DNA of 39,428 bases. Source: Microcaldota archaeon (lineage in GTDB: Archaea > Micrarchaeota > Micrarchaeia > Anstonellales > JAGGTN01). The notes beneath the pieces were generated by a model. It worked only from the letters and a program-made list of their open reading frames with translations. It had not been told where the DNA came from and searched no databases. This document shows positions 22,282 through 38,620 of this stretch, one piece after another. Positions within the stretch are counted from its first letter, which is position 1, and each line of letters begins with the position of its first letter. Made by a program: the position numbers and the translations under genes. The stretch covers positions 1 through 39,428 of the forward strand of contig JAGGTN010000017.1 in assembly GCA_021163645.1 (NCBI GenBank), read 5' to 3'.

Positions 22282-22356
22282 ATGATTACTTCATCACAAT
22301 AGTTTTATAAAGATTCAGCGAATAAAAATCAAAAACATACGAGCCCGGAGGGATTT

Positions 22357-22388
22357 TTGGGCCATATTGAGATTGATTCTCAATATGA
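22357..22388 (-). other. tRNA-Arg intron 2 (T-loop, 56/57), 32 nt
   Basis: GGGU-UCU-CAUAUUGAGA(AUCAA)UCUCAAUAUG-GCCC-AAA: 10-bp inner helix, 4-bp central helix, two 3-nt bulges; splicing gives UUCAAAU T-loop. Confidence 0.9.
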
Positions 22389-22407
22389 GAACCCTCAACC
22401 TGCTGGT

Positions 22408-22560
22408 TTCCTCTTATTCACCACTCTTAATATCATCAGATTAACTTCTTTTGCTCTTTTTACGTTTCTTGTCATTTCTCGTTACATTTCTTCTTGATCC
22501 TTTTTCCGTTCCTCCTTTTTAGTGCAGGTTTTTCTTTCTTGTAAGAAAGAAAAATGTGCT
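22408..22560 (-). other. tRNA-Arg intron 1 (canonical 37/38), 153 nt
   Basis: Outer helix GCUGG/CCAGC, central 4-bp CUUC/GAGG, 3-nt bulges GGA and AAA (relaxed BHB, no clear inner helix). Confidence 0.85.
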
Positions 22561-22666
22561 CCGAAGCCAGCCGCGCTATCCAGGTTACGCTACGGGCCCG
22601 CAACAAATACATTTTATCTTTATAAATATTTAAATGTTTCAATTTTCCAAATTGAAATTTAATTGA

Positions 22667-35545: not shown

Positions 35546-35772
35546 CATAGGTTCACTCATTGAATGGGTCAAATATTTTTAAGAGATACAAATAATCAAA
35601 GTGAAAGATTACAATGATAGGCAGTAAAAAATCATAGTTTGAAAGCAAAGAGCATATTAACAGCTACGATACATAGTTATCATTGTACAGGATAGATAAA
35701 ATAAATAATTGGAATTACAAAGAATAAAAACATCAAAATAAAAAAAGATGATGTAAGCCTCAGGAGGGATTT

Positions 35773-35843
35773 TTGGGCCACTTTTCTTTTTTAGCGCAGG
35801 TTTTTGGATGTCGCCTTCGCCTGCGACACCGAAAGAAAAGTGC
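35773..35843 (-). other. tRNA-Thr intron 3 (T-loop 56/57), 71 nt
   Basis: BHB: GGGU-UCG-CACUUUUCUUU ... AAAGAAAAGUG-GCCC-AAA; splicing gives UUCAAAU T-loop. Confidence 0.92.
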
Positions 35844-35862
35844 GAACCCTTGACCTCGTCCT

Positions 35863-35936
35863 TTTTTTGAACTTTTCTTTTTTTAGCGCAGGTTTTTGGA
35901 TGTCGCCTTCGCCTGCGACACCGAAAGAAAAGTACA
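35863..35936 (-). other. tRNA-Thr intron 2 (anticodon loop 37/38), 74 nt
   Basis: Outer helix CGUCC/GGACG; inner helix ACUUUUCUUU/AAAGAAAAGU; relaxed central pairing UUGG/UCAA; core near-identical to intron 3. Confidence 0.88.
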
Positions 35937-35957
35937 TACCAAGGACGCGCTCTACCA

Positions 35958-35999
35958 TTCCAGGCCTTTCTGAAAACTATCTGATTTCAGTCTAAGGCA
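35958..35999 (-). other. tRNA-Thr intron 1 (D-loop, after nt 17), 42 nt
   Basis: BHB: UCAG-UCU-GCCUU ... AAGGC-CUGG-AAU; splicing gives canonical D-arm GCUCAGUCUGGUAGAGC. Confidence 0.88.
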
Positions 36000-36081
36000 G
36001 ACTGAGCTACTGAGGCTTAAACTAAGTATTGAGATATATTATTAACAAAAGTTTAAAAAGATTCATGATTGAAAAGATTTT

Positions 36082-38300: not shown

Positions 38301-38368
38301 TTTTTAAAACCTTTTGGATATTGTTATAATGTATGGTTTGAAGATTATTTCATAAAATTGAAACGGGT

Positions 38369-38413
38369 AAGCACACTTTTTGCCCGATGAGCAAAAAGTG
38401 CACTAAAAAGGTA
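38369..38413 (+). repeat. free-standing hairpin resembling the tRNA-Arg intron 5' portion
   Basis: CACTTTTTGC(ccgatga)GCAAAAAGTG perfect 10-bp stem followed by CACTAAAAAGG; shares TGCACTAAAAAGG with the tRNA-Arg intron. Confidence 0.6.
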
Positions 38414-38620
38414 GAGCAAGGATGCTTCATTATGGCAATCAAAGATTGCAACTTGGCGAATTGAATATTTGCCATCCTTCAATAGCTATAAAATTCTCCA
38501 TGCTGCTTCATCATATTTGCCGTTCAACATCCTTTCTTCTTCTTTTGTAAGAACATATTGAACACCTGCTTTTTAGAATGAATGAACATTACATCTTTAA
38601 AAAAACAACACCTATCATTG

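Follow-up and report, generated by a model that had tools for sequence, protein, structure and literature searches.

The question raised by positions 22340-22599 of this DNA is whether a tRNA gene interrupted both beside its anticodon and inside its T loop can be a functional gene, and what the inserts that interrupt it are. We examined it in a contig of 39,428 nucleotides (the window, meaning the whole stretch analysed), which belongs to a MAG of the phylum Micrarchaeota (0.89 Mb in 57 contigs, 88.6% complete), and in related genomes of the phylum.

The locus reads as a tRNA-Arg(UCG) gene of 260 nt in total, running on the minus strand from 22599 to 22340, with an intron of 153 nt at position 37/38 and one of 32 nt in the T loop at position 56/57. 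Exon 1 (39 nt; 22561..22599, minus strand) supplies the 5' strand of the acceptor stem, the D arm and the anticodon arm up to G37, and matches an intact homologue in a relative. Intron 1 (22408..22560, minus strand), assigned from the sequence, has a canonical BHB with the central helix CUUC/GAGG, the bulges GG^A and AA^A, and the anticodon stem as its outer helix. Exon 2 (19 nt; 22389..22407, minus strand) runs from A38 through the 3' strand of the anticodon stem, the variable loop and the 5' strand of the T stem to UUC. Intron 2 (22357..22388, minus strand) shows a relaxed bulge-helix motif, in which an inner helix of 10 bp, CAUAUUGAGA/UCUCAAUAUG, accompanies the central helix GGGU/GCCC and the bulges UC^U / AA^A, with no base pair in the outer exon helix. 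Exon 3 (17 nt; 22340..22356, minus strand) consists of AAAU, the 3' strands of the T and acceptor stems, and G73; like exon 2, it was delimited from the sequence and by homologue comparison. A BHB was required at both introns, and was present in strict form at 37/38 and in relaxed form, without the outer helix, at 56/57. The spliced exons were also required to form a canonical tRNA, and they do, with all stems perfect or wobble-paired. By eye, an A/T-rich, putatively promoter-like stretch (22600..22640, minus strand) contains TTTATAAA, which starts 27 nt before the gene. The group I intron covariance model found no match in the window.

Evidence that the gene is real came from in silico splicing, in which each BHB-compatible insert of at most 120 nt was removed from the window and the product was submitted to ARAGORN with one anticodon intron allowed. 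Among 7811 single-BHB splices a tRNA emerged solely at the Arg locus, the two matches being one-base register variants, and 24 dinucleotide shuffles of the window, each tried with about 8000 splices, produced none. When ARAGORN scores were relaxed, a looser scan by single splices gave 23 matches in the window, mostly noise, and evidence was taken from the strict scan only. In the window, the Arg tRNA was seen neither by ARAGORN without intron removal nor by Rfam at gathering scores, and ordinary annotation would therefore overlook the gene. ARAGORN shifts the 37/38 intron by two bases and reads the anticodon as UCA; this selenocysteine assignment was rejected as a register shift, since the strict BHB and the intact homologue both give UCG.

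That homologue (locus L013 in the relative G001) shows 95% identity over all 75 nt and has the anticodon loop CUUCGGA. The Arg(UCG) homologue of a further relative, G008, has the same uninterrupted anticodon loop and carries different introns, in the D arm and in the T loop at 59/60, which argues that introns at this gene come and go. The initial annotation had described two introns, a 10-bp hairpin, a GGGU/GCCC central helix and UCU/AAA bulges, and every one of these elements held; so did its claim of a canonical tRNA-Arg(UCG) after splicing, which both homologues support. It had named an intact Arg(UCG) gene elsewhere in the genome as one part of a refutation, and none was found by BLAST of the mature sequence against the genome, within an assembly that is 88.6% complete.

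The genome encodes one splicing endonuclease, a 422-aa protein of the epsilon2 type, whose named relatives are mostly from Candidatus Micrarchaeota. It aligns over nearly its full length (residues 32-422, E 5.9e-119) with the ARMAN-2 epsilon2 enzyme 4FZ2, and counted along this alignment the catalytic Y236, H251 and K282 and the specificity-loop Y160/K161, whose roles in the epsilon2 endonuclease are taken from PMC12397907, are conserved. It thus has the three-unit chain, the catalytic Tyr-His-Lys and the specificity-loop Tyr-Lys by which we defined the type. The epsilon2 enzyme has been reported to cut BHL and hBH motifs (PMC4033280). The RtcB ligase was found in two pieces, each at a contig end, and with this split the genome contains both endonuclease and ligase.

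The window contains another disrupted gene, tRNA-Thr(GGU), at 35755..36016 on the minus strand (ends approximate), with three introns. Removal of a 42-nt D-loop intron (35958..35999, minus strand; inner helix 5 bp) gives a product that ARAGORN calls tRNA-Thr(ggt). The 37/38 intron (74 nt) and the T-loop intron (71 nt) are near-identical copies, so transposition of an intron within one gene is suggested, and their core also occurs in the Arg 37/38 intron. The T-loop intron lies at 56/57, the same site as Arg intron 2, and the two share the end GGCCCAA|AAAUCCC. An acceptor strand GCCTTAG was considered for this gene and rejected; the true acceptor is GCCTCAG, upstream of the third intron.

Across the genome, tRNA genes were resolved by Rfam matches, T-arm patterns and one- or two-intron splicing. 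Twenty-seven of the 28 resolved genes are disrupted, and the sole intact one is initiator Met. They hold about 36 introns, with one in each of 19 genes, two in seven (Arg UCG, Arg UCU, Lys UUU, Lys CUU, Glu UUC, Met CAU and Ser GGA), and three in Thr GGU. Fifteen of the introns lie in the T arm, namely twelve at 59/60, two at 56/57 and one at 53/54; at 59/60 the central helix is built from the T-loop sequence UUCRAA itself, and the T stem serves as outer helix. The count depends in part on manual reading, it lacks some isoacceptors, and not every Leu anticodon is settled; the missing tRNAs may be more fragmented still, or the assembly may be incomplete. As a separate observation, tRNA-Lys(CUU) at C23:23035 of this genome (G000; locus L037) has two apparent introns, one of 13 nt and, in the T loop, a C/A-rich one of 239 nt. 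In 84 genomes of the order, the number of Rfam-recognisable tRNAs per genome ranged from 1 to 44, a spread from which hidden tRNAs are likely to be common in the order, with assembly gaps contributing. Low counts were seen in G049 (2), G063 (1), G066 (3), G045 (5) and G076 (5), whose tRNA sets are perhaps even more disrupted. The initial annotation had inferred genome-wide intron richness from a second multi-intron tRNA in the 39 kb; the inference held, and so did the second gene, with three introns rather than two. It had not recognized the 153-nt Arg intron as one member of a conserved family whose introns occur across the phylum.

The members of this family share a module composed of a 3-bp helix (GCA:UGC), an internal loop, a pyrimidine-purine hairpin, the trinucleotide ACU and a purine tail. 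In the window it occupies 22509..22559 on the minus strand within Arg intron 1 (65.5 bits, E 4.6e-15; fold z -4.0), 35873..35935 on the minus strand within the Thr 37/38 intron (51.4 bits), and 35781..35843 on the minus strand within the Thr T-loop intron (54.4 bits), all three being training copies of the model that scored them. Searched exactly, the core AACCTGCRCTAAA has 16 occurrences in the genome and its reversed control 0; with one mismatch allowed the numbers are 22 and 1. Seventeen copies aligned to the module structure gave a covariation score of 0.217, compared with 0.078 in shuffles, and single copies fold accordingly. A first covariance model, built from these 17, recovered 26 copies in the same genome, 21 in G008, from which none of the training copies came, 15 in G004 and 13 in G024. 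In 69 distinct copies, 97% of the cells are paired and seven of the nine pairs show compensatory changes, including those of the first helix, nearly invariant in training. With a second covariance model and a threshold of E <= 1e-5, 303 genomes of the phylum were searched and 30 contained the module; 18 of these belong to other orders. Held-out copies, from genomes of other orders and in neither model, are 99.7% paired with both-sided changes in 8/9 pairs; they were chosen by models containing those pairs, so some lean is expected, and slid structures reached 40-68%. Exact-core matches in G031, G045, G017, G069, G008:C2:87008 and G013:C135 lack the hairpin and, by eye, resemble coding or unrelated sequence; they were set aside. 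No published account of such a module was found in the literature searched, which is weak evidence.

Copies of the module lie mostly at three kinds of site. In the tRNA introns of its own genome the module starts 1-3 nt past the 5' splice site; it also lies directly behind tRNA 3' ends (for example Leu, Pro, Val and Trp in G024), and it occurs in inserts of the 16S and 23S rRNA genes that look like introns and have flanks identified by Rfam. By a crude motif test of 122 copies, 89 have tRNA-like arms nearby on their own strand and 37 on the opposite strand, compared with 28% at random window positions, and the module follows the tRNA strand wherever the neighbouring tRNA was resolved, save at one unresolved locus. 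About 13 copies in the genome lie in standalone repeats or other intergenic places. One such repeat of about 140 nt, outside any tRNA seen, is in the window at 38354..38491 on the plus strand (module 38371-38416, 30.5 bits, E 3.6e-6).

Several further occurrences were noted in passing. Inserts with the module that are probably introns are L189 and L199 in the 23S rRNA of G004 and L219 and L241 in the 16S rRNA of G097 and G275. Standalone repeats of about 140-165 nt recur in G000 at C15:5482, C23:17139, C49:4323, C44:21794, C7:18960, C55:10167, C13:28723 and C51:10876, and one 134-nt copy folds at -45.8 kcal/mol (z -3.9) with the closing stem AUAUUGAA/UUCAAUA. Tandem arrays are present behind tRNA-Leu (G024:C130:5216-5417) and in an apparent tRNA intron (G004:C16:7131-7299).

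The purine tail mirrors the purine strand of the hairpin in sequence, and does so only along the length of the pyrimidine-purine tract. Agreement of G and A between the two gave a phi of 0.87 at the mirror register and of -0.17 to 0.17 at neighbouring registers, a value reached in 0/5000 shuffles; in held-out copies phi at the mirror register was 0.73, again with 0/5000 shuffles. The covariance models hold no correlation between tail and hairpin, and therefore selection of copies by the models cannot produce the mirror agreement. Tail identity was 92% (852/924) within the pyrimidine-purine tract, compared with 28% in the rest of the hairpin and 70% for shuffled tails, and a tail G stood over the C-G layer in 115 of 149 cases, compared with 28% after shuffling. 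The mirror orientation excludes a simple in-register Watson-Crick pairing of the tail with the pyrimidine strand. A purine-motif triplex calls for a third strand antiparallel to the duplex purine strand, with A over U-A and G over C-G, and the module satisfies this by sequence only. The mirror tail thus carries the signature of a fold-back triple helix, as an inference from sequence alone; physical association has not been shown. RNA-only purine-motif triplexes are held to be weak, and for that reason a DNA-level cause or a protein-stabilised form stays possible.

We consider it very likely that the locus yields a functional pre-tRNA-Arg(UCG), both of whose introns are cut by the splicing endonuclease before RtcB joins the exons; transcription, cleavage and ligation are inferred, without RNA data. 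The best-supported mechanism would be two-step archaeal tRNA splicing by an enzyme of broad specificity. The 56/57 intron holds T-stem bases 51-54 and, by inference, would have to leave before the T arm folds; its removal would need an enzyme that tolerates relaxed motifs. The 37/38 intron is one member of the family spread through tRNA and rRNA genes of the phylum. Its module is probably a hairpin with the purine tail folded back along it, which most likely contributes to forming or protecting both the processing site and the intron once excised, and which may mark a lineage of mobile introns; these roles are inferred. A possible route of spread, offered as speculation, is that RtcB joins an excised intron to another RNA end and that the product then returns to DNA. 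On a bolder reading, the module would be a natural purine-motif RNA triple helix at the heart of a lineage of mobile introns, one that has colonised tRNA and rRNA genes and the 3' ends of tRNAs throughout the Micrarchaeota; we hold this reading to be possible but less likely than not.

Other explanations of the Arg locus were weighed against splicing. It could be a decayed tRNA pseudogene with insertions that is no longer expressed, as ARAGORN and Rfam miss the tRNA and a single gene carries two insertions. However, its stems are perfect or wobble-paired, its exons are 95% identical to the intact homologue, it is the sole Arg(UCG) gene found, and 26 other tRNAs of the genome are disrupted at BHB positions, so that we regard decay as very unlikely. 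Equally hard to sustain is the proposal that what interrupts the T loop is no spliced intron but an inserted DNA hairpin, REP-like or of another kind. In its favour are the perfect 10-bp hairpin with a short loop and the standalone hairpin repeats of the genome. Against it, a 4-bp central helix together with the UCU/AAA bulges is formed by the ends of the insert, the 56/57 site of tRNA-Thr also holds an intron, one with an identical end, and in twelve further tRNAs an intron interrupts the T loop at 59/60. Several points count against the preferred reading of two spliced introns. It has no RNA data behind it, RtcB is in two pieces at contig ends, and some expected tRNAs are missing from the genome; the 56/57 motif also lacks an outer helix, so that its cleavage relies on the relaxed specificity known from the ARMAN-2 enzyme and untested for the enzyme of this genome.

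For the module itself, a DNA feature remains a possible alternative to an RNA triple helix, in the form of H-DNA or of a transposon hairpin in single-stranded DNA. H-DNA classically forms at polypurine mirror repeats, the weakness attributed to all-RNA purine-motif triplexes favours this view, and so do the standalone repeats in intergenic DNA. Against it stand the agreement of module strand with tRNA strand, with its one unresolved exception, the position of the module start where RNA is processed (the 5' splice site or the tRNA 3' end) and the presence of the module in rRNA introns. The module could also be a guide or other known small RNA (C/D or H/ACA) lodged in introns and trailers, and guide RNAs can ride in archaeal introns and tRNA trailers. 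This is unlikely, as only tRNA and rRNA families reached the Rfam threshold in nine scanned loci and nothing in the window exceeded it, and by eye neither C/D boxes at conserved positions nor an ACA pocket could be seen. For the core of the Thr introns, identification as a C/D RNA or an IS200/IS605 end was likewise dropped, with no boxes seen and Rfam blank; transposase genes were not searched.

Multi-intron tRNAs as such are already known. Archaeal tRNA introns average 0.21 per gene, and in the richest archaeon, Pyrobaculum calidifontis, 71 introns lie in 46 genes with at most three per gene (PMC8450103). The tRNAs of Thermoproteales share with those described here several BHB introns per gene, at canonical and noncanonical positions, and near-identical introns at different sites that suggest transposition (PMC8450103); the Micrarchaeota genome differs in phylum, in endonuclease type, in its heavy use of the T loop and in the structured module at the intron start. 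Closer are the noncanonical tRNA introns of ARMAN-1/2 (PMC4033280, PMC12397907), with the same phylum, epsilon2 enzyme type, multiple introns and relaxed motifs, whereas no conserved intron module and no near-total tRNA disruption are described in the relevant sections of those papers; ARMAN intron sequences were not compared. Introns in 16S rRNA genes are shared with the archaeal BHB rRNA introns of PMC4496867, but here some rRNA introns of relatives carry the module of the tRNA introns. Natural RNA triple helices in which the third strand matches the duplex layer by layer are known from MALAT1/ENE and the telomerase pseudoknot, and these are of U.A-U or minor-groove types. In contrast, the module would have a purine third strand that comes from the 3' side of its own hairpin and folds back, placing A over U-A and G over C-G. 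What is new seems likely to lie within the introns, in a structured module found throughout the phylum.

With nearly every resolved tRNA gene requiring splicing, translation in this organism depends on one endonuclease and one ligase, and tRNA disruption may account for the low numbers of tRNAs that standard tools recover from many Micrarchaeota genomes. Should the module prove to form a triple helix in RNA and to be linked to the spread of introns, it would provide a searchable structural hallmark for archaeal introns, and the old question of how tRNA introns move would become directly testable.
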